Positions 23,886-35,647 of a stretch of 35,647 nucleotides of DNA are shown here, in pieces; the stretch's first letter is position 1; the number at the start of each line of letters is the position of its first letter. The stretch covers positions 1 to 35,647 of IMG/VR virus record IMGVR_UViG_3300021963_010580; one strand, written 5' to 3'. The DNA comes from a virus. The notes beneath the pieces were generated by a model that worked only from the letters and a program-made list of their open reading frames with translations, searched no databases and was not told the DNA's origin. Position numbers and translations under genes: made by a program.

Positions 23886-25067
23886 GTGCCAGTCACGATC
23901 ACCACAACACCCGGCACGGCCTATGTCTGGGGTAACGCTGCCTTTAGCTGGAACGCGACCGAGGCCGGTAAGGCTTGGCAGGACGCGAGCGCCACGAGCT
24001 TTCTTGCCGAAGAAAGCGATGGCCTCCTGCTTGCGCCGGTTGAAGCGCGTCTGCCGATTGTCAATGACAGCGAGAGCCTTGGACTCGCCGATGCGGACGC
24101 TTTCGCCGCGACAGCAAGCGCAGCGGAGGCCCTGTCACTTGCTGAGACCTACATTGATCTCATCGCGTTCATTCTGACCGCTGCTGAGTCGATCGGCATC
24201 GGCGAAATTGCGCTGCGCCAAATGACCCAGTCGCCCTTTGCAGAGATGCTGGGGCTGATCGACAGCGTGTCAAAGAACCCCCTCACTGTCACCAATGAAG
24301 CATGGAGCACACTCGAACAGGACGCTGCCAGTATCGGGCAAGCCATCGCTGAGAACACGGCATTCACCGAACAATCCACGCGCGATGCCGTTACACCCCG
24401 CAATAGCACGTTCACTCTCGGAGACATTCGTGCAGCTGTATCCATTCAGAGCAGCCTTCGGAGCCTTGCCTTCGCGGAGACCTACACTGATCTGATTTCA
24501 TTCCTCGCGCAGATCGCCGAACAGATCTCAATTGCAGATGCGCGAGGCAATGCCGTCACCAAGCCGTCGTTCGAACAGCTAGCTCTGCTGGATCGGATCC
24601 TCCGCGCATCAGAGGCCGTCATCGCAGACCTCGCTTTCCGGACGACTGCGCTGGATGACGAGGGATTTGCGGCGCTGATTGCCGAGGCGCGTCCACTTGG
24701 CTTTAGCGCCTTCCGAGACCTGACGCCTGGCGATTACGAATACGCGAATGCGCTTATTCGTTTGGCGCTCGCAGCGCCAAGCACATCAACCAGCAGGATC
24801 GCGCTGACCGATGCCAAGCTCATCGTGGACGTTCCGGACGTCCGGGATCGCGGCACGGTTGCGGTTCCTGTCGGCGGACTGACGGTCGCTTTCAGCCAGC
24901 CATTCAATGCGCCGCCGGAAGTCCAGGCGACGTTCAAGGGCGGCGCGACGATCGCCGTGCCGCAGATCGGCACGATCACGACGAGCGGGTTCCAGCTGAC
25001 CCTCATCAACCCCGCAACCCAAGCATCCGTGGCCGGCAACGCCAGCTGGGCCGCTGAAGGCTACTGA
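23886..25067 (+). CDS. Tail fibre/receptor-binding type protein with internal repeats and lectin-like C-terminus
   Basis: 393-residue protein, GTG start at 23886. Most of it is alpha-helical with two related segments of about 45 residues: AETYIDLIAFILTAAESIGI (from about residue 86) and AETYTDLISFLAQIAEQISI (from about 197). The C-terminal 90 residues are beta-rich (TVAFSQPFNAPPEVQATFKGG, then TSGFQLTLIN, ending WAAEGY) and resemble H-type lectin domains, so a carbohydrate receptor-binding role is likely but unproven. It belongs to the tail fibre block. Confidence 0.55.
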   Translation: MPVTITTTPGTAYVWGNAAFSWNATEAGKAWQDASATSFLAEESDGLLLAPVEARLPIVNDSESLGLADADAFAATASAAEALSLAETYIDLIAFILTAAESIGIGEIALRQMTQSPFAEMLGLIDSVSKNPLTVTNEAWSTLEQDAASIGQAIAENTAFTEQSTRDAVTPRNSTFTLGDIRAAVSIQSSLRSLAFAETYTDLISFLAQIAEQISIADARGNAVTKPSFEQLALLDRILRASEAVIADLAFRTTALDDEGFAALIAEARPLGFSAFRDLTPGDYEYANALIRLALAAPSTSTSRIALTDAKLIVDVPDVRDRGTVAVPVGGLTVAFSQPFNAPPEVQATFKGGATIAVPQIGTITTSGFQLTLINPATQASVAGNASWAAEGY

Positions 25068-25078
25068 CCGAGGACCGC

Positions 25079-26143
25079 ATGGCCCAGACCTATCCCGATA
25101 TCCCATCGACCAAGGCGGTCCGCGATAGCCGGCAGGATATCCTCGATCGTGACGAGGCAATCCGCTCGGCTTTCTCGGGCACGACCTTCCCAAGCACCAA
25201 TCTGGTCGCCGGCATGCTCTGCTTTCGGACCGATCTGGGCCAGCTCTATCAGCTGACCATTGCCTCGCCCGTCACATGGACACGCGTCCCGCTCGGTGTC
25301 CCTGTTCCGATTTCGCAGGGCGGCACAAATGCAACAGACGCTGCGACAGCTCGCAGCAATCTCGGCTTGGCGGCGCTTGCTGTCAAAAATACCGTCGCAG
25401 CTTCCGACATCGATAATGCTGCGGTCCAGACCGCCAAGGTCCAAGACGGCGCCGTTACGACGGCAAAGATCGGCGACGCGCAGGTCACAACGGCCAAGAT
25501 CGCTGATGCGCAGGTGACGACCGGAAAACTCGCTGATGGCGCCATCACCAGCGCAAAGATCGCGGATGGCACGATCGCGACAGGTGATCTTGCAAGCCAG
25601 ACCATCGCCGACATTCGTGCCGGTGTTGATCTCGGAAGCCGTGTCGCCAAGTCCGGCGATACGATGACCGGAACGCTGACGGCGCCGGGACTGGTCTCGA
25701 CCGGCTCCGTGCGTTCCGGCGGAACCGGTGACAATGCGCGCGCCACAGGGTTCGTGATCGCCGACGGGACGGATATCGGCGAACTCAATCGAAGCAATCA
25801 GTACTACGACGACCGCGTCAACAACTGCTCCGGCTACCTCCCGAACGGGAATTGCCTCGGCAATGGGCTGTGGACGCCACCCAATGGGAATTGGTGGACC
25901 TGGGGCTTGGGATTCGGTCCGGGAAATCCGAGCGGCTTCGATTTCGCCGGCGGTTCGAGCGTCAGCTACCAGCCGGTGTCCGTCGGCTTCGTCTATGCGG
26001 GGTACAACCTGGCTGCGGACGAAATCGGCGGCGGTGAGTATCGACGGAACTTCAACAACTGCAATTGCGGCGGCTTCAACTGCTACTCGAACTGCAATTG
26101 CAACTGCAATTGCGATTGCAACTGCGCCTGCGGTGACGGCTGA
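25079..26143 (+). CDS. Tail fibre protein with Asn-Cys-rich C-terminal tract (candidate modified substrate)
   Basis: 354-residue protein. The N-terminal half is ordinary phage tail fibre: GGTNATDAATARSNLGLA, several 10-11 residue TAKIxDAQVT-like repeats (about residues 117-180) and SGDTMTGTLTAPG. From about residue 235 it is Gly/Asn/Trp-rich (LWTPPNGNWWTWGLGFGPG). Its last 27 residues contain 10 Cys (328, 330, 335, 339, 341, 343, 345, 347, 349, 351); nine follow Asn or Asp directly. Cys 250 and 259 also follow Asn. Two radical SAM/SPASM genes lie downstream, so the tail resembles a RiPP-like core fused to a fibre. Alternatives are metal binding or disulfide locking. A GAGGAGG ribosome site for the next gene overlaps its stop. 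Confidence 0.75.
   Translation: MAQTYPDIPSTKAVRDSRQDILDRDEAIRSAFSGTTFPSTNLVAGMLCFRTDLGQLYQLTIASPVTWTRVPLGVPVPISQGGTNATDAATARSNLGLAALAVKNTVAASDIDNAAVQTAKVQDGAVTTAKIGDAQVTTAKIADAQVTTGKLADGAITSAKIADGTIATGDLASQTIADIRAGVDLGSRVAKSGDTMTGTLTAPGLVSTGSVRSGGTGDNARATGFVIADGTDIGELNRSNQYYDDRVNNCSGYLPNGNCLGNGLWTPPNGNWWTWGLGFGPGNPSGFDFAGGSSVSYQPVSVGFVYAGYNLAADEIGGGEYRRNFNNCNCGGFNCYSNCNCNCNCDCNCACGDG
26057..26125 (+). repeat. Tandem AACTGCAATTGC repeats in the Asn-Cys tract
   Basis: The 12-bp unit AACTGCAATTGC (Asn-Cys-Asn-Cys) occurs at 26057-26068, 26090-26101 and 26102-26113, the last two in direct tandem. GATTGC and AACTGC follow. Repeat slippage by 6 or 12 bp would add or remove Asn-Cys pairs in frame. 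Confidence 0.85.
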
Positions 26144-26154
26144 GGAGGCAGATC

Positions 26155-27039
26155 ATGATCAAGCCATTCACCCGGCACTTCTTCGATCTGCCGTTGCCGA
26201 TCCTCGTGCTCGTGCGTCGCGATAGGCGCAAGGTAACCTGCCGGACATTCCGAGAGCTTCCCGCCGATGTAGAGCACGCCAATCCAATCATGCGACTGGA
26301 AGCCGAGCGCTTGCTCAAGGAGCACGCGGATGCGTGGCCGAGCACCATGTTCCGCCGCCGTCCGATCCCCGGACTCATGCTTGCAGCGGCACTCGATGGA
26401 CGCATCTTTGAGGAACTCGGCAGCGTCTGCCTCGACCTTGATGGCATGCTCGGCAAAGGCGAATGGTCCGACCGCGCGACTTGGCTGTTTCCGCTCGATC
26501 ACGCCGGGACACCGCAGGTGCCGTTCAATCGCTTCGTGATGACACGCGAGACCAAGGCCAGGACGCCGAGGCTGCTGGCGACAGCGGGCAGAAACTGCGC
26601 GCTGCAGATCTATGTCCCCTTTGCAAGTTGCAATTTCGACGACTGCAGTTTCAGCGTCGCGCTACATCGCGATTTTGGATTGGTCGGCAATCTCGATCCT
26701 GGCGTCGAGGTCACCTATGCGGACGTGCTTCAGGGCGCTCAGAAGCCGTTTGCCGAGATTGCGTTATCGACCGACACCCTTGATCTGGCGCCCGATGCCT
26801 ACGGCACGGTGACAGCGCAGCTCGTCGATGGTGCAGGAAAAACCATCAAGGATGCAGAGGCCGAGATCTACATCGAAGCTACCGGCGGGTACCTCCCGCA
26901 GCAACGGGCGATGACAATCAAGGGAAAGACGCAGTTCCGCATCGGAGCGCTCGGGCTCGACGCCGGCGAGAGCTTTCGGGTCAAGGTCGGCTTCCGGCAC
27001 TTCAGCAGCGTTGCCGAGGTGAAGGTTCGGGTGGTTTGA
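26155..27039 (+). CDS. Unknown protein with Ig-like C-terminus, between fibre and radical SAM genes
   Basis: 294-residue protein I do not recognise. The N-terminal 110 residues are mixed and basic, with IPGLMLAAALDGRIFEELGSVCLDLDGMLG. The middle contains several cysteines (CALQIYVPFASCNFDDCSF). The last 80 residues, beginning IALSTDTLDLAPDAYGTVTAQLVDGAGKTI, read like a bacterial Ig-like domain (VTAQLVDGAGKxIxxAEAEI, ending VKVGFRHFSSVAEVKV). It has a strong ribosome site, GAGGAGG. No transporter or peptidase motif is seen. It lies between the fibre and the first radical SAM gene (spacing 11 and 3 bp), so a role as fibre partner, carrier for the maturases, or virion protein is plausible. None is shown. 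Confidence 0.6.
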   Translation: MIKPFTRHFFDLPLPILVLVRRDRRKVTCRTFRELPADVEHANPIMRLEAERLLKEHADAWPSTMFRRRPIPGLMLAAALDGRIFEELGSVCLDLDGMLGKGEWSDRATWLFPLDHAGTPQVPFNRFVMTRETKARTPRLLATAGRNCALQIYVPFASCNFDDCSFSVALHRDFGLVGNLDPGVEVTYADVLQGAQKPFAEIALSTDTLDLAPDAYGTVTAQLVDGAGKTIKDAEAEIYIEATGGYLPQQRAMTIKGKTQFRIGALGLDAGESFRVKVGFRHFSSVAEVKVRVV

Positions 27040-27042
27040 GCC

Positions 27043-28065
27043 GTGCTCAACATCTTCCTCGGCTATGCCTGCAATTTCTCATGCAGCTACTGTCTTCAGG
27101 AACTCGATGCGCCCGACGCCGTGCGGCGGCGCCACCCCGTCGAGCCGTTCATTGAGCGCGTCGTCCCGTTCGTCCGGGAGAGAGGGATCAAGCGGATCGA
27201 CTATTGGGGTGGTGAGCCGCTGCTCTACTGGAGCGAAATCAGCGCAATTCATACGGCCTTCGAGCGCGCTGGGCTGGCCTTTGACTTCGTGCGCATCACG
27301 ACCAACGGCAGCCTGCTGGCGCCGGATTTCGTAGGGCCGATGAACGACTGGAACTTCTACGTCGTCGTCAGTGATCACGGCGAGTTCGGTCAACCGGCAT
27401 GGGACATGGTGCGCAGGCTCAAGCGGTCGAGCATTTCCTTTCTGTTCACCGCCGAGAACACGGTCATTTGGCCGCTGTTCGAAAAGCTCGACCGTCTCGA
27501 AGCGGAGTACGGTCGGCCGTTCTGGCCCTATGCCCATTGGGTTCGCACGACCAGGGGATGCGCACCACGATACTGGTTCACGCCCGAGAGTCTCGACCGC
27601 CATATCGAGCATCTCTGGGAGCTAGCGCGGATGCGTCTTGCGGGCCATCGACATGCCAGCCTGTTCTTTGACGGCCATCTCGACGAATGGCGGCGCGGCT
27701 TGGTGCGCGCGGCGGCTCCAGTCGAGCCGCTCTGCCACAGCGCCAGCCACCTGTCGGTCGATCTCGCCGGCAACCGCTATGCCTGCCACCACAGTGTGAA
27801 ACGCAGCTTCCGGACGGGGCATCTCTTCGACGAGACCGGGCCGCGCGATCAGGGCGAACAAGAAGCTCTCGATCACTCCTGGCGCTGGGTGAGAAGCGCC
27901 GAGTGCCAGGCCTGCCCGGTGCGCTCCTGGTGCCGCGGCAATTGCCATCTGTCGCAGACCCACGAACTCGACTGCAGGCTGTCCCGCGAGAAGCATCGGG
28001 TTTTTGCCTGGCTCGACCAACAAGAGAACGGCGCGCTCGCGCGCAATCAGATCAAGGTGCCCTGA
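27043..28065 (+). CDS. Radical SAM/SPASM maturase, short form
   Basis: 340-residue radical SAM enzyme, GTG start. The SAM cluster motif CNFSCSYC (C10, C14, C17) lies almost at the N-terminus, so no leader-binding domain precedes it. IDYWGGEPLLYW gives the GGE SAM-binding motif. The C-terminus has a SPASM-like domain: C-x11-G-x4-C (CHSASHLSVDLAGNRYAC), then CQACPVRSWCRGNC and a final Cys after HLSQTHELD (C-x2-C-x5-C-x3-C-x9-C), suited to auxiliary iron-sulfur clusters. SPASM enzymes modify peptides (thioether crosslinks, other C-X bonds or formylglycine). Substrate here is inferred to be the fibre's Asn-Cys tail. Confidence 0.88.
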   Translation: MLNIFLGYACNFSCSYCLQELDAPDAVRRRHPVEPFIERVVPFVRERGIKRIDYWGGEPLLYWSEISAIHTAFERAGLAFDFVRITTNGSLLAPDFVGPMNDWNFYVVVSDHGEFGQPAWDMVRRLKRSSISFLFTAENTVIWPLFEKLDRLEAEYGRPFWPYAHWVRTTRGCAPRYWFTPESLDRHIEHLWELARMRLAGHRHASLFFDGHLDEWRRGLVRAAAPVEPLCHSASHLSVDLAGNRYACHHSVKRSFRTGHLFDETGPRDQGEQEALDHSWRWVRSAECQACPVRSWCRGNCHLSQTHELDCRLSREKHRVFAWLDQQENGALARNQIKVP

Positions 28066-28066
28066 A

Positions 28067-29440
28067 ATGACCGAAACCCTCGAATACCGGCTCGCGATGG
28101 CGGGCCGGAACGGATACGCACGCGCGCTGCTCTACCGCCCGCACAGCTCAGAACTTCGTTGGGAAGATACCGGCGAGCCCGTCGATCTGCGGGCGGTCGG
28201 CACAAATTACGATCCATCGCCACCCGACTGGACGCCTGCGGAGCCCGTGTCTCCAGCCAATCCGGGTCGCAAAAGCCGCGATATCCGCGTGCTGAAGATC
28301 CAGATGGGGCTCAAGTGCAACTACGCCTGCACCTACTGCAATCAGGCGTCCCAGCCCCATGAAATCCAGGGTGACATGGGCGACGTCCAATCCTTCCTGC
28401 GCCGCCTCCCGACCTGGTTTGACGGCGGCAAGGAAGGCGATGGCAGCGGCGTGCGCATCGAGTTCTGGGGCGGCGAGCCTCTGGTGTACTGGAAGACGTT
28501 CCGCGTCCTCGCTGGCGCGCTGCGATCGGCCTATCCCAAGGCTCGCTTCAATGTCATCACCAACGGCGCGCTTATCGACGACGACAAGATCGAGTTCTTG
28601 GACAAGCTCGGCTTCGGCGTCGGCATCAGCCATGACGGCCCGGCCATGCGCTATCGCGGGCCGGACCCGCTCGACGATCCGGACCAGCGCGCCGGGATCC
28701 GCAAGCTCTACGACCGTCTGCGCCCCTGGGGTCGGATCGGGTTCAACTGCGTGCTGCACAAGCACAACATGTCGCTGGTCGCAGTGCGGCGCCACATTGC
28801 CGAGCGCTTGGGCGTGCCGGTCGACGACATTCCGCTCTCCACCGAGGAAATACTGCTGCCCTACGATCAGGGCGGTATCGCTCTCTCGCCTCAGACCGAG
28901 AGCGAGCATCGCGCCTATTTGGAGGCGGTGTTCTGGGAAGCTGTACGCGGTGAGAGCATGCCGATCTCGACCCTACGTTCGAAGATCGACGAGTTCTTTC
29001 GCTCCATCGCACAGGCACGCCCCGCATCGTCTCTTGGCCAGAAATGCGGCATGGACCGGCCGACCGATCTGGCCGTCGATCTCAAGGGCAATGCCCTGAC
29101 CTGTCAGAATACGAGTGCGGCCACCAAGCACCGGATCGGTTCGATCGAGGCGTTCGAGGACATCCGTCTTACAATGGCCCACCACTGGTCGACGCGCGTC
29201 GAATGCCGGAGCTGCCCGGTGCTGCAGCTTTGCCAAGGCGCCTGCCTCTTCCTCGAAGACGGCCTGTGGCGGCAGGCCTGCGACAACAGCCTCACCCACA
29301 ATCTCGCGGTCCTTGCGGCATCCCTCTACTGGCTCACCCGACTCGTCCTCGTTGAAATCGAGGGGCCGGTCATGCGCCGTGACGGTCTGCCGAACCGTAT
29401 CCCCGTGATCACGCTGCCGGCGGAACTCGCCGCAGCCTGA
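28067..29440 (+). CDS. Radical SAM/SPASM maturase, long form
   Basis: 457-residue radical SAM enzyme from ATG 28067, one base after the stop of the first maturase. The open frame begins earlier (28004), inside that gene. An N-terminal extension of about 75 residues without recognised family precedes CNYACTYC (C84, C88, C91). It could hold a substrate-binding function. FWGGEPLVYW is the GGE motif. The SPASM part has C-x13-G-x4-C (CGMDRPTDLAVDLKGNALTC), then CRSCPVLQLCQGAC with a final Cys 11 residues on. Both enzymes keep full cysteine sets, arguing for two active catalysts. Known family: peptide-modifying SPASM proteins. Confidence 0.9.
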   Translation: MTETLEYRLAMAGRNGYARALLYRPHSSELRWEDTGEPVDLRAVGTNYDPSPPDWTPAEPVSPANPGRKSRDIRVLKIQMGLKCNYACTYCNQASQPHEIQGDMGDVQSFLRRLPTWFDGGKEGDGSGVRIEFWGGEPLVYWKTFRVLAGALRSAYPKARFNVITNGALIDDDKIEFLDKLGFGVGISHDGPAMRYRGPDPLDDPDQRAGIRKLYDRLRPWGRIGFNCVLHKHNMSLVAVRRHIAERLGVPVDDIPLSTEEILLPYDQGGIALSPQTESEHRAYLEAVFWEAVRGESMPISTLRSKIDEFFRSIAQARPASSLGQKCGMDRPTDLAVDLKGNALTCQNTSAATKHRIGSIEAFEDIRLTMAHHWSTRVECRSCPVLQLCQGACLFLEDGLWRQACDNSLTHNLAVLAASLYWLTRLVLVEIEGPVMRRDGLPNRIPVITLPAELAAA

Positions 29441-30673: not shown

Positions 30674-31968
30674 TGGACACCTCCAGAAACCCTTTGGCGG
30701 CCGCCTATGAGGTCTGCACGGGGCTGCTGTAGGGGCGACGAGCGAGCGGAGGCGATGCGGCGGCGCTTGGCCTGGGGCCGCTGGTTGGATCAGCGGCTGG
30801 CTTGGGCCTTTGCTACGCTGGTGCGGGCCTACCGCTGAGCCAGACGAGGCGCTTGATGTTGTAGGCGAGATTGGCGAGGCCGATCTTCACCCTCGCCCTG
30901 GCGATGCCGATGGTACGCACCATCAAGCCCATCGGCCCCTTCTGCCGGGCAAAGACATGTTCGACCGCCGAGCGCACGGCGGATTTGCGAGCATTGGCCT
31001 GCCGCGTCCGCGCCGGCATAGGCCGCCCCGCCGGCTTCTTGCGGTGGATGCGCGAGACAAGGCCGCGCGAGGCCAGCCATGCCTCGTTCTTCGCCGAGCG
31101 ATAGGCGGTGTCGGCCCAGATATCGCCGGCGGTGTTGTTGGCATCGACCACCTCCGCCAGCCTCGCCCCGTCATGGGCGGCGGCGTGGCTCGCGGTCCAG
31201 CCGCGGATCAGCCCGTGCCGGCGATCGATCGCGACATGGTTTTTGTAGCCAAAGGCCGGCACGGCGAGATCGACCTGCGGCGTGCCATCCTCGCGCGGCT
31301 TGGCCTTGGAGAACTTCACCGTCCAGCGCGCGTCGCGGTCCTTCTGGCGGAGCTTGGCAGGCTTCTCCGCCCAGCCTTCGGGGATCTGCCCGGCCTTGAT
31401 CGCCGCCCGCTCGGCCTCTGTGTTGCGCTGCTTCGGCGCGGCGACGATGGTCGCATCCACGATCTGCCCGCCCATCGCCAGGTAGCCGGCAGCGCGTAGC
31501 GTGGCGTCGAACTGCGCGAACAGCCGCTCCACCGCCCCGGCCCGCTTCAACGCCTCGCGGAACGCCCAGATCGTGTTGGCGTCCGGCACCGGATCGGCCA
31601 GCCCAAGGCCGAGAAAGCGCATGAACGACAAGCGATCCTTGATCAGATACTCGCAGCGCTCGTCCGACAGCCCGTGCATGGCCTGCAGCAGCAGGATCTT
31701 GAACATCAGCACATGATCGAAGGCAGGCCGGCCGCCCTTCGTGCCGTCGGCGCGCGGCACGGCGCGTTCCAACTCCGGCCGGAACAGAGCGAAATCCACC
31801 AACGCCGCGATCCGTTCGAGGTCGTCGCCCTTCGCCGACAATTCCCGCAGCCGGTCCTCCACATCGAAGAACCCAGCCTGCCGAACCATCGCCTGCCCCC
31901 CCCGCGCCGATCCGCGTCAGTGAATCAGCCTGCGGTCAGCGTGACGAGAGGGTTTCTGGAGGTGTCCA
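30674..31968 (-). mobile_element. Complete IS5-family insertion sequence (1295 bp)
   Basis: Perfect 20-bp terminal inverted repeats TGGACACCTCCAGAAACCCT at 30674-30693 and its reverse complement at 31949-31968 enclose one intact transposase gene. No target duplication is seen: the flanks are GGTAAT to the left and GCTTGC to the right. The right end interrupts an IS3-type orfA (31969-32137), but the remainder of that element is absent on the left, so a deletion or rearrangement followed insertion. Confidence 0.85.
30813..31889 (-). CDS. IS5-family transposase
   Basis: 358-residue DDE transposase. An N-terminal region (GKGGRPAFDHVLMFKILLLQAMHGLSDERCEYLIKDRLSFMRFLGL-like) is typical of IS5 family members. 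Catalytic candidates are the first Asp in GGQIVDATIVAAP, the second in GDIWADTAYRS and the Glu in AVEHVFARQKGPMG with the conserved R/K after it. The reading frame is intact and the element has full ends, so it may be active. ATG 31889 is followed by an uninterrupted frame to 30813. Confidence 0.92.
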   Translation of the reverse strand: MVRQAGFFDVEDRLRELSAKGDDLERIAALVDFALFRPELERAVPRADGTKGGRPAFDHVLMFKILLLQAMHGLSDERCEYLIKDRLSFMRFLGLGLADPVPDANTIWAFREALKRAGAVERLFAQFDATLRAAGYLAMGGQIVDATIVAAPKQRNTEAERAAIKAGQIPEGWAEKPAKLRQKDRDARWTVKFSKAKPREDGTPQVDLAVPAFGYKNHVAIDRRHGLIRGWTASHAAAHDGARLAEVVDANNTAGDIWADTAYRSAKNEAWLASRGLVSRIHRKKPAGRPMPARTRQANARKSAVRSAVEHVFARQKGPMGLMVRTIGIARARVKIGLANLAYNIKRLVWLSGRPAPA

Positions 31969-32218: not shown

Positions 32219-35200
32219 TCAAAAATTGTAGGTTACCTTATCAATCATATCCGCCACCACAGACGTTTGGCTGTTTCCGGCGTGCACATACTCCAAACTC
32301 AGTAGCACACTTTTGTCGGCCCTATTAGCAGCTGACACGTTCGATAGATCGACATCCAAAATCAAGTCAGTCGTCAGCTTGCCGCTGGTGCCCCGCTCGC
32401 AGTAGTCGTGCACCAGTTCGCCGTCTGCATACACCTTCACATGGTCACCCAGCACCATGCCCGGCCCGTTCTCGCGGTCAAGCACCAGTTGCAGCGTCAG
32501 GTCGTTGGAGCCCGCGGTGCCTGCGGTGCTGGCGCTGGAGGTGGCCGACACATCGCCGCCGCCGGATTGCCAGGTCAGCTGCTGGAAAGCCACCGGATCG
32601 ATGCGGTAAATGGCGGCATTCTGGATGTCCGCCGTTGTCGGCGTAGAAGCTCCTCCATGCAGCGCCGATAGACTTGCAACGAGGCCACTCAGGTCTGCCA
32701 GGTGACCATTTGGCCCTGTTTCAAACACGTGGTTCCACTGATCAAAGATAGAGCTCACATTCTCCGGGGCGACCTGACCGCTCAGGATGGCCTTGAGCTG
32801 CGCCAGCGCCGCATCCATGCTGCCCATGTCGGCATCACCGCCCGAGAGCAGTGCCAAGATCTGGCCCATGTGTTCGGCCCTGCTGACCCCATCAGCCTCG
32901 TTGTAATTGGCCGAGGTGACCGTCACGACATCTCCGTTCAGGTCGTCAACATGGAAGAAGTTTTGCACCGCCAGCACAGCCTCCTTGGCGGTTTGCTGGG
33001 TCATTGACCGAGCCGCGCTGGTCGCCAGCCGAACGGCAAGCTCGGTCAATGGGCTCACCGTGACATGCGTGCCCCCATCGAGTTCTGCAACGGACGCGAA
33101 ACCTCGCAGGTTGATGGCCAGGTCCAGCATTTGCCCGGTCGCCTCGTCCAAGTAATCCACCGCGGCGCCATTGCTGTCCGTGGCTGTGACCAGGAACAAA
33201 TCATCCAAAGCATAGTCCGCAACACTGGTGAAGTCGGTCGTCGAATCTTCTAGCGCAATCTGAGACAGTGCAACGTCTGGGCTGGACGCGAAATCACCAG
33301 CCACCACCGTGAACTGATTGCCAGCAGTGAAGTTCGCCAATGGCACGCTGATGAGCTTGATATTGCCGTAGACGTCCGTCACGCGGATTTGAAGCGGCTG
33401 GCTCGCCGCTGTGTAAAGCGGTGCGTAAAACAGTGGTGTCGTGGACGCATAAGATGACATTAATGCGTCTGATTGCCAGCCAGGTGTACTGAAGGTCCCG
33501 CTTCCGAGGCTGAGAGGGGAGTTGAAATTGGAGCTCCCGCCCTCCGCTACTCCGGTCGCAGTGACGTTGCCTCCCATCATTTCGATAAGCTGGTTAGTCA
33601 AATTCCGGTAGGTTACGCCATCGTAAACAGTCCATTTGTTGAGCCCGCTGGTCCCTGTATTGGTCAACTGGACAGCGGCCAATGGAACGCTGAATGTGTA
33701 TTCCCGCAGAGGAAATTCACTGGGCAGCAGCTTGGTGTCATAAGCTGCCGAAGTGAGGCCGCTGGTGATGTCGCCACCCACAAACACCTTGAGCTCCCGG
33801 TTGCTGCCTGAGACAGCGCCGAGGCTGAAGCCCACCGTGTAAACATCAGCCGCAGCAATGCCATTGCTGAAAGCGCCCGTTGTCGTCAAGGTGGTGCTGG
33901 TGCTGTCACCGTCTTTTCGGTAGACGATTTTGATGTCTGCGGCGACGCGGTAAATCGCAAAGCCGGCCAGAGCCACCCCGTCATTGGTTGCGTTCCCAGT
34001 GGCGGTCTTCACGACGCTGTACAACATCTTGTTATCGGAGTTGTTATTGGCGCCAGCCGTAATAACTCCCATGGCCGATAGGTCTGCGGCACCAGTCACG
34101 TCTGCGTTAAGTGGACGGTCGGTTTGCTTGGTGGTGCTGTAGTTTGTCGAAAACAGGTTCGGCGAAATTGAGAGAGCCTGCCCCAGCGGAACGAATGCAG
34201 ACAGGTTGGCGGTGGGTATCGCCGTCCACTTGCTCGCATTCGCCGAACTGTAGTCCCAATACTCGTAAGTGGCGCCGGCCAGGGGGGTCGTGATGCCAAA
34301 GTTGGCCGTGTTGAGGCTTTGCTCGACCACGGTGGTGGGCACGTTGATATTGGTGCCAGGCAAGGACGAGGCGGCCGTTGTAATTGACGGCACAGAACCT
34401 CCGATGGTGATGTCGGAGAACGTCAAGCTCTGTCCCGCCGCCATCTGCAAGGAACTGATCGCTTCATTGCCTGTGGGCAATGTGAACGAGTACAAGAGGC
34501 CCTGCGCGTCCTTGCCGGCGTAGTTCGCCACCCAAGTGTTGCCGGCTTGATCAACCAGATTGATGGCGGTGGCTGCGGCGCCCGAGCCCAGCGTCACATC
34601 GCCATAGGTTTTGAGCCGAACCGTGACGGTGTTGCTCGGATCGTCGAACACGACATAAGAATCCAGCGTATTCGCAATGCGAGTCGGGTGGATGGCGATG
34701 GTCTGACTGGCCATTTTGTACACGCCGGCCTCGTCCTTGACAATGACCGCATAGGATCCGTTACTCAAACTCGCCAGGTCGGTGGGCGTTTTCTGAAGGC
34801 TTACAGGATTGTTTGAAGTGACTGTGACGGTTTCTGACTTCCAGGTGTCTACTGGTTTTCCGCTCAAGGCAGCGACAATGTCTTTCGCTGCCGTGCCAGC
34901 CGTGTATTGGTCCGTACGAACGTAATAAAGGCTCAGTGTCTGCGAAGTTCCCACTTTGCTGGAAAGCATGGTGGGCGTGAGCGTCAGACCGATGACGTCG
35001 CTCGCATCGTCACGATAGCTGGTTGCATCGGTCACCGTGATATCGGCTGGGGTTCCATCCCATTCAAAGGCTTTGACCTGAGTGAAGCTACCCAGATTGC
35101 CGGCGCGATCCGAGAACGCGGCCTCTACTGTGTACGCCCCCTGGGCCAGGCTGTTGAAGTTGACTCCGAAGGATTCTTCTACGGCAATGGTGACCCGCGC

Positions 35201-35647
35201 TCCACTTGAATATGTGTACGGGTAGCCGCCACCACTGTAGGCTGTATCGAAATCTGCTGTAGACGTTTGAACAACGGTGCCGTTGGCATCTTTTACCCGC
35301 AAGGCCATGCCGTAATGGTAATTAGACGAGACCAGTCGAACGTTTCCGGTGAGGCCGAGCGTCGTGTTGGTGACACCCCCGAGAGCGTACATCAGATTCA
35401 AGCTCAATCCCGTTCCGACTGACAGGGAATCAGGTGTGAATACGCTGGGCTGGGTGGTATAGTAGGTTGTGGCATTGACCACCCCGTAAGCGGCGTCGTT
35501 GACATCAACCGTGCTGTTGCCGGTCGCTTCTATTGAAATCACTGCAGTGTAGGTACCTACCTTATCTGCCGTTCCCCAGTAGAAATTGGCGGCATTGACT
35601 GTGTCGCCCGGAGCCGAATTGTCCACAAACAGGGCTTTCGGGCCCAT
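32219..35647 (-). CDS. Large Ig-like repeat surface protein, 3' part (runs off the right edge)
   Basis: C-terminal 1142 residues of a large extracellular-type protein; the ATG at the last base of the window may be internal. The sequence is Ser/Thr/Asn/Gly-rich, with successive bacterial Ig-like modules (for example GAYTVEAAFSDRAGNLGSF, and SNGSYAVIVKDEAGVYKMASQTI). A conserved block near the C-terminus (YLDEATGQMLDLAINLRGF, VTVSPLTELAVRLA) occurs in large adhesin-like repeat proteins. No membrane anchor or transporter signal can be seen at the end. Base composition and codon use (more AT-rich, many AAT and ACC/ACA alternations) differ from the phage part, so it likely belongs to another replicon or a different lineage. 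Confidence 0.7.
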   Translation of the reverse strand: MGPKALFVDNSAPGDTVNAANFYWGTADKVGTYTAVISIEATGNSTVDVNDAAYGVVNATTYYTTQPSVFTPDSLSVGTGLSLNLMYALGGVTNTTLGLTGNVRLVSSNYHYGMALRVKDANGTVVQTSTADFDTAYSGGGYPYTYSSGARVTIAVEESFGVNFNSLAQGAYTVEAAFSDRAGNLGSFTQVKAFEWDGTPADITVTDATSYRDDASDVIGLTLTPTMLSSKVGTSQTLSLYYVRTDQYTAGTAAKDIVAALSGKPVDTWKSETVTVTSNNPVSLQKTPTDLASLSNGSYAVIVKDEAGVYKMASQTIAIHPTRIANTLDSYVVFDDPSNTVTVRLKTYGDVTLGSGAAATAINLVDQAGNTWVANYAGKDAQGLLYSFTLPTGNEAISSLQMAAGQSLTFSDITIGGSVPSITTAASSLPGTNINVPTTVVEQSLNTANFGITTPLAGATYEYWDYSSANASKWTAIPTANLSAFVPLGQALSISPNLFSTNYSTTKQTDRPLNADVTGAADLSAMGVITAGANNNSDNKMLYSVVKTATGNATNDGVALAGFAIYRVAADIKIVYRKDGDSTSTTLTTTGAFSNGIAAADVYTVGFSLGAVSGSNRELKVFVGGDITSGLTSAAYDTKLLPSEFPLREYTFSVPLAAVQLTNTGTSGLNKWTVYDGVTYRNLTNQLIEMMGGNVTATGVAEGGSSNFNSPLSLGSGTFSTPGWQSDALMSSYASTTPLFYAPLYTAASQPLQIRVTDVYGNIKLISVPLANFTAGNQFTVVAGDFASSPDVALSQIALEDSTTDFTSVADYALDDLFLVTATDSNGAAVDYLDEATGQMLDLAINLRGFASVAELDGGTHVTVSPLTELAVRLATSAARSMTQQTAKEAVLAVQNFFHVDDLNGDVVTVTSANYNEADGVSRAEHMGQILALLSGGDADMGSMDAALAQLKAILSGQVAPENVSSIFDQWNHVFETGPNGHLADLSGLVASLSALHGGASTPTTADIQNAAIYRIDPVAFQQLTWQSGGGDVSATSSASTAGTAGSNDLTLQLVLDRENGPGMVLGDHVKVYADGELVHDYCERGTSGKLTTDLILDVDLSNVSAANRADKSVLLSLEYVHAGNSQTSVVADMIDKVTYNF

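Follow-up and report, generated by a model that had tools for sequence, protein, structure and literature searches.

Repeated DNA at the end of a tail fibre gene raises the question of whether it acts as a slippage switch or simply encodes a repeated peptide. The gene considered here lies in one IMG/VR virus record of 35,647 bases, the whole of which was analysed and is called the window (Table 1). The original prediction was that three copies of the 12-bp unit AACTGCAATTGC, two of them in tandem, encode an Asn-Cys run and that slips of 6 or 12 bp would change the number of modification sites, which would give a variable receptor tip. The three copies are present and encode that run as described. 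We assume that the fibre tip is the receptor-binding part. The fibre ORF ends in NCNCGGFNCYSNCNCNCNCDCNCACGDG, and the tract stretch at this end translates in frame as NCNCGGFNCYS-NCNCNCNCDCNCAC-GDG. AF2 modelled the fibre tip poorly (pLDDT 56.8), and the model was unfit for structure search.

Table 1. Positions of the fibre gene, its tract and the downstream genes in the window, and of the tract genes in two Achromobacter phages.
Feature	Position	Strand	Evidence
Tail fibre protein, 354 aa, C-terminal Cys tract	25079..26143	+	PHROG tail fiber families, best E 2.3e-14
Cys tract: core NCNCGGFNCYSNCNCNC, then variable end NCDCNCAC	26057..26131	+	Codon reading; invariant Asn/Cys columns, 40-row alignment
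AACTGCAATTGC, copy 1	26057..26068	+	
AACTGCAATTGC, copy 2, in tandem with copy 3	26090..26101	+	
AACTGCAATTGC, copy 3	26102..26113	+	
Terminal X-Cys run, 7 dipeptide units	26090..26131	+	
Partner protein, 294 aa; C-terminal domain read as Ig-like, about residues 199-294	26155..27039	+	
Radical SAM/SPASM protein 1 (rSAM1), 340 aa	27043..28065	+	PF04055 33.6 bits vs cut-off 29.5; TIGR04085 39.5 vs 27
Radical SAM/SPASM protein 2 (rSAM2), 457 aa	28067..29440	+	PF04055 39.0 bits; TIGR04085 32.9; phrog_1802 E 7.5e-52
Asn-Cys tract protein with Hint domain, phage JWF	L272:4835-6286		
Asn-Cys tract protein with Hint domain, phage 2-1	L275:1844-3286		

Some other features of the window can be described briefly. 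Directly 5' of the fibre gene, positions 23886-25067 encode a protein of 393 aa that weakly matches H-type lectin towards its C-terminus (E 0.009, below the cut-off). The right part of the record holds an IS5-family transposase gene on the minus strand at 30813-31889 (NF033581, 223.6 bits against a cut-off of 140). A large minus-strand ORF of 1142 aa at 32219-35647 runs to the window end and has no Pfam or NCBIfam match at E 0.1. The right end of the window may be host DNA.

The tract combines a conserved core, NCNC[GS]..NC..NCNCNC, with a looser distal end. The window is among 108 tract loci that have the fibre C-terminal domain, and in an alignment of 40 domain rows chosen from these loci, residues N154, C155, N156, C157, G158, N161, C162, N167, C168, C170, C172, and C174 were invariant. 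The full core motif was kept in 51 of the 58 tracts that start with NCNC[GS]. The residue preceding Cys was mostly Asn, Ala, or Asp (963, 152, and 87 of 1,263 X-Cys pairs in 147 tracts, or 1,202 together). At one locus (L009), Tyr replaces one core Cys (SNYNC), a natural loss of a tract Cys.

Downstream of the fibre gene, a partner protein and two enzymes are encoded, and both enzymes score over the curated cut-offs of Radical_SAM (PF04055, 29.5) and SPASM (TIGR04085, 27). For rSAM2, the ATG at 28067 was chosen as the start instead of a TTG at 28004, since the alignments of most relatives with the longer frame begin only at residue 20 or beyond; the query used in the NCBIfam, Pfam, PHROG, start-site, and cultured-phage searches carried the 21 extra N-terminal residues of the TTG start. 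The AF2 model of the partner has a mean pLDDT of 94.9. Its residues 199-294 structurally match domains of intimin, GH2 enzymes, pilus chaperones, and S-layer proteins (Z up to 12.6, 94 residues, 2.4 A), and we read this part of the model as an Ig-like fold. The N-terminal part had no informative PDB match, which is not proof of a new fold, and the best whole-length structural matches were phage proteins without a named function.

The relatives, mostly metagenomic contigs, were used to examine how regularly the tract and the enzyme occur together. Of the loci retrieved via rSAM2, 116 include 2.5 kb or more of upstream DNA, and in 102 of these an X-Cys tract was found upstream of rSAM2; the reverse strand of the same upstream DNA held a tract in 0 of 116, and DNA downstream of rSAM2 in 1 of 90. 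When all 149 rSAM2-fetched loci were counted, a tract was present in 113. Another 22 hold no more than 2.5 kb of upstream DNA, and the remaining 14 comprise 5 with a shorter or irregular Cys tail and 9 with none. Two loci found by the tract pattern (L163 and L168) also lack an upstream Cys tail of the kind seen in these proteins, although long upstream DNA is present. Starting from the tract, a scan with its DNA pattern gave, among the matches listed, an rSAM2-family ORF in 78 of 118 loci, and a strong rSAM2 ORF within 6.5 kb after the tract in 63. By our reading, 23 of the other 40 are not C-terminal tracts and 2 lie on contigs with a known rSAM2. A further 7 reach the contig end no more than 1.3 kb from the tract; one of these, also searched with the profile, had no Radical_SAM match. 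The full records of the last 8 contain a Radical_SAM match (over the cut-off in 7), which by coordinates is on the strand of the tract and about 5 kb or less downstream of it.

In 108 of 179 tract-and-rSAM loci, the tract gene and rSAM2 are separated by a partner gene. This tally, like 113/149 and 63/118, counts loci, so that a contig fetched twice counts twice. The fibre-domain search is not independent evidence, because its patterns include the tract. In cultured phages the rSAM2 family is rare, with matches in 25 of 50,697 records. At least 80% of the query was covered in only three, namely the two records of phage JWF and that of phage 2-1, and both phages bear a tract. Thus, most examined relatives have a conserved tract upstream of a radical SAM/SPASM gene, often with the partner gene between them. 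No description of a Cys-tract tail protein paired with a radical SAM enzyme was found among the matches listed from open-licence PMC papers, and the available text of PMC10783043 contains nothing on such a pairing.

Several known systems resemble parts of this arrangement. According to excerpts of PMC9062424, the bacterial SSN Cluster 59 combines a radical SAM enzyme with Asp-Cys repeats whose number varies with the organism and reaches six. It shares with the window a repeated Cys-dipeptide motif in a cluster with such an enzyme. The Cluster 59 substrate is a peptide from a three-gene cluster with a recombinase, whereas the tract in the window is a fibre C-terminus, mostly Asn-Cys, often accompanied by a partner protein. 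The Hxs system (HxsB/HxsC with HxsA) likewise pairs a repeat motif with radical SAM enzymes (PMC9062424, excerpts); in contrast, the tract has no His-Xaa-Ser repeat, and the two window enzymes scored 18.3 and 38.9 bits with HxsB (TIGR03978), under its cut-off of 370. PapB-family ranthipeptide maturases have Cys-containing substrates (PMC9413430, excerpts) and, like the window enzymes, combine radical SAM with SPASM. Their motifs are CX3D rather than alternating X-Cys. The PapB family (NF047865) was the best NCBIfam match of rSAM1 and the second best of rSAM2. Among the best 25 NCBIfam rows for each rSAM protein, no maturase family was over its cut-off. In addition, two similar pelagimyophages differ in region HRC by cassettes related to radical SAM proteins, for which the text examined in PMC7029224 proposes no role.

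The pairing, the conservation of the tract, and known SPASM chemistry suggest that the radical SAM/SPASM enzymes modify the X-Cys tract after translation. In other words, the tract would be enzymatically finished by enzymes encoded downstream of it. The modification would most likely join Cys sulphur to neighbouring residues; this chemistry is a guess, because rSAM1 and rSAM2 scored 49.8 and 58.9 bits with PapB, whose cut-off is 340. A tract modified in this way might form a compact and stable fibre tip.

Metal ions are naturally coordinated by Cys-X-Cys repeats, and metal binding occurs at several phage tips; the tip of the T4 long tail fibre contains iron-binding HxH. The tract could accordingly be a metal- or Fe-S-binding tip, with its length scaling with the number of ions, while the radical SAM genes act elsewhere. 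This alternative accounts for the Cys residues and leaves the pairing of the tract with rSAM2 unexplained. In the 40 rows, most core Cys residues are preceded by an invariant Asn, and the X residue is mostly Asn, Ala, or Asp, which is stricter than metal binding should need. We regard a purely metal-binding tip as unlikely and modification of the tract as the better reading.

In some relatives, the tract is followed by further sequence. Hint-like sequence was recognised by eye right after the tract in JWF, 2-1, L020, L031, L043, L100, L101, L103, and L104. The JWF match to PF05203 is over the cut-off (E 3e-12). In a Pfam scan of four contig proteins with a Hint-like end, L020, L043, and L100 were below the cut-off and L031 had no match. 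The fibre protein of the window has no Pfam Hint match and stops 3 residues past the tract. Hint domains cleave themselves. In relatives with a Hint-like domain, self-cleavage may leave the tract as the mature C-terminus.

Both Achromobacter phages, JWF (NC_029075) and 2-1 (OQ974181), resemble the window in that the Asn-Cys tract protein is encoded shortly after the central tail fibre gene and is followed by a radical SAM gene. The order is tract gene, one hypothetical gene, radical SAM gene (annotated as phrog_1802 in 2-1), one small gene, and endolysin. They differ from the window in their shorter tract and the Hint domain after it. The two tracts are one NC unit (6 bp) apart, and the rSAM genes are 83% identical.

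Whether the DNA of the tract is itself a source of variation depends on how repetitive it is. Replication slippage on the 12-bp repeats would give a rapidly variable number of Cys sites and a tunable or phase-variable receptor tip. In its favour, the tract has two exact tandem copies of AACTGCAATTGC plus degenerate ones, and Tandem Repeats Finder also marks the stretch, with periods of 6, 12, and 18. The two copies (24 bp) are the sole exact tandem of this unit, and a search of both strands of the whole window found no fourth copy. When synonymous codons were shuffled inside the tract, 14% of trials produced at least 3 copies of one NCNC 12-mer, and 60% produced a self-overlap that was exact over 12 bp or more. 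Asn and Cys codons drawn from the phage's own usage, in which AAC makes up 53% of Asn and TGC 89% of Cys codons, gave 13% and 46%, respectively. Tandem repetition in excess of coding need, a mark of a simple-sequence contingency locus, was thus not found (p 0.13-0.60), and the tract DNA is no more repetitive than an (Asn-Cys)n protein and the codon usage of the phage demand. Within the tandem copies, the 20 bp at 26094-26113 are at the same time an inverted repeat, with arms of 9 bp (GCAATTGCA..TGCAATTGC) on either side of a 2-base spacer.

Recent one-unit slippage should leave identical neighbouring units, and the absence of such a sign counts against fast slippage. In 155 tracts, 156 of 480 adjacent same-residue units had identical DNA, against 179.2 +- 8.0 in shuffles, and in 99 rSAM-linked tracts the units were again less alike than shuffled ones (88 of 321 against 107.6 +- 6.9). 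Selection against repeats is not claimed, because in stricter non-redundant sets (60 and 30 tracts) the avoidance of identical neighbours weakens to a trend (p about 0.1). In the same sets, units two apart were identical slightly more often than in shuffles (51 of 137 against 44.1 +- 4.6, and 26 of 67 against 21.1 +- 3.2; p about 0.1), which hints weakly at a 12-bp period.

Comparison of the repeat number among relatives, which the original prediction had proposed as a check, shows that it is not fixed. Relatives have 4 to 11 X-Cys units, 4 being the search minimum. In a tree built from the rSAM2 proteins with FastTree (161 rows, 152 with a unit number), at least 39 changes in unit number and at least 6 changes in the presence of more than 40 residues past the tract (Hint-like where inspected) were counted; both counts may be inflated by recombination between fibre and rSAM2. 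Among 153 pairs of fibres whose preceding domains are 85% or more identical, tract length differed in 39: 26 of 48 at 85-92%, 9 of 52 at 92-97%, and 4 of 53 at 97-100% protein identity. The preceding domain itself had an indel in 1 of the 153 pairs. Differences were multiples of 2 codons in 33 of the 39. A 6-bp difference separates L057 from L058 and L076 from L078, the latter pair with a substituted X residue too. L076 and L078 have radical SAM genes that are 100% identical over 1,422 bases, yet their fibre genes and tracts differ, which suggests recombination around the fibre. The unit number is therefore variable over evolution, and in frame. The frequent length differences and 6-bp steps favour slippage, although 6-bp steps are also expected from selection for the X-Cys pattern.

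A different picture is obtained from close relatives. In 39 contig pairs whose upstream DNA is at least 97% identical (23 at 99% or more, 16 at 97-99%), tract length never differed, and the tract DNA was identical in 20 of them; some of these pairs may be one phage sequenced repeatedly. A repeat number that differs between near-identical isolates, as at a slippage locus, was thus not found in this set. At 90-97% upstream nucleotide identity, 6 of 59 pairs differed; among these, the L007/L008 difference is confined to a Gly tail, and in L120/L155 and L120/L183 tracts of unrelated types are paired through a short alignment. Seven units are shared by the window and the two relatives nearest to it by rSAM2, and some clades hold one tract length across about 15% rSAM divergence. 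Tract length is stable on short time scales and changes slowly beyond them.

Two other protein ends served as controls, and they split. The non-repetitive C-terminus of rSAM2 (last 32 columns) had indels in 32 of 120 of the same pairs (9 of 38, 8 of 41, and 15 of 41 by identity bin) and is about as indel-prone as the tract; this control is weakened by the greater average divergence of rSAM2 compared with the fibre domain (mean identity 83, 88, and 91% in the three bins). The partner C-terminus is not, with indels in only 2 of 53 pairs (1 of 16, 1 of 20, and 0 of 17), a point in favour of slippage. Pairs in the length and control-end comparisons are not independent. For the protein-identity pairs and control ends, rows that shared both domain end and tract DNA were collapsed into one, and loci with more than 40 residues past the tract were left out of the pair and control-end analyses and of the unit-identity analysis of the 99 tracts and stricter sets. 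A hand-made list of 13 loci that duplicate a contig or the window was excluded from the nucleotide pairs, that unit-identity analysis, the tree, and the controls, and retained in the tract-pattern rSAM2 count (78/118) and the nearest-relative comparison. The distal tract is thus labile as some protein ends are; a special slippage mechanism is possible and unneeded.

The part of the original prediction that concerned length variation by 6- or 12-bp steps stands in so far as the number varies among relatives. A rapidly slipping tip is not supported: tract lengths differ between many relatives, with some 6-bp steps, but in none of the 39 closest pairs, so the variation looks slow, with no sign of a fast switch. 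The shuffles, the non-homogenised units, the seven units in the nearest relatives, the single-length clades, and the indels at the plain rSAM2 end (found at lower identity) all argue in the same direction. Slippage as a source of rapid variation is quite improbable, and it is kept as a possible slow source of length changes.

That the radical SAM module modifies phage DNA and adjoins tail genes by chance, as DNA modification was proposed for the modules of Thermus phages Cumys and phiMa from DUF483 and deazapurine contexts (PMC11437467, excerpts), is very improbable, since the module follows Cys-tract tail genes in 102 of 116 loci, the gene before the Cumys rSAM gene looks like a peptide substrate too, and the Cumys enzyme is related to rSAM2 only distantly (26.6% identity over 71% of the query). 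In Cumys, the ORF at L273:4997-6028, which is flanked by tail-collar genes and the rSAM gene, is made up mostly of His-X-Asp repeats and is a second kind of repeat protein beside a phage radical SAM gene. In our view, this neighbour fits a peptide substrate at least as well as DNA modification.

Taken as a whole, we consider it probable, with moderate confidence, that the repeat DNA results from encoding a conserved Asn-Cys fibre C-terminus with TGC-rich codons, that the enzymes modify the tract, and that its length drifts slowly. Distal X-Cys units would be gained and lost over evolution, probably via ordinary in-frame indels or recombination between short repeats, and slippage may still supply slow changes. 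Repetitive codons under a repeated peptide need not signal a slippage switch, and the length result corrects an easy misreading.

A wider proposal is more tentative. A large family of tailed phages could possibly finish its fibre tips in a RiPP-like manner, with radical SAM/SPASM enzymes, often together with an Ig-like partner, cross-linking an X-Cys tract that is sometimes bared by Hint cleavage, and with distal units that vary under selection and tune the contact surface. As JWF and 2-1 are sequenced isolates, the modification idea is directly testable. If the tract is cross-linked, RiPP-type radical SAM chemistry would be used in building a virus particle, and this would be a route to very stable and evolvable binding tips.
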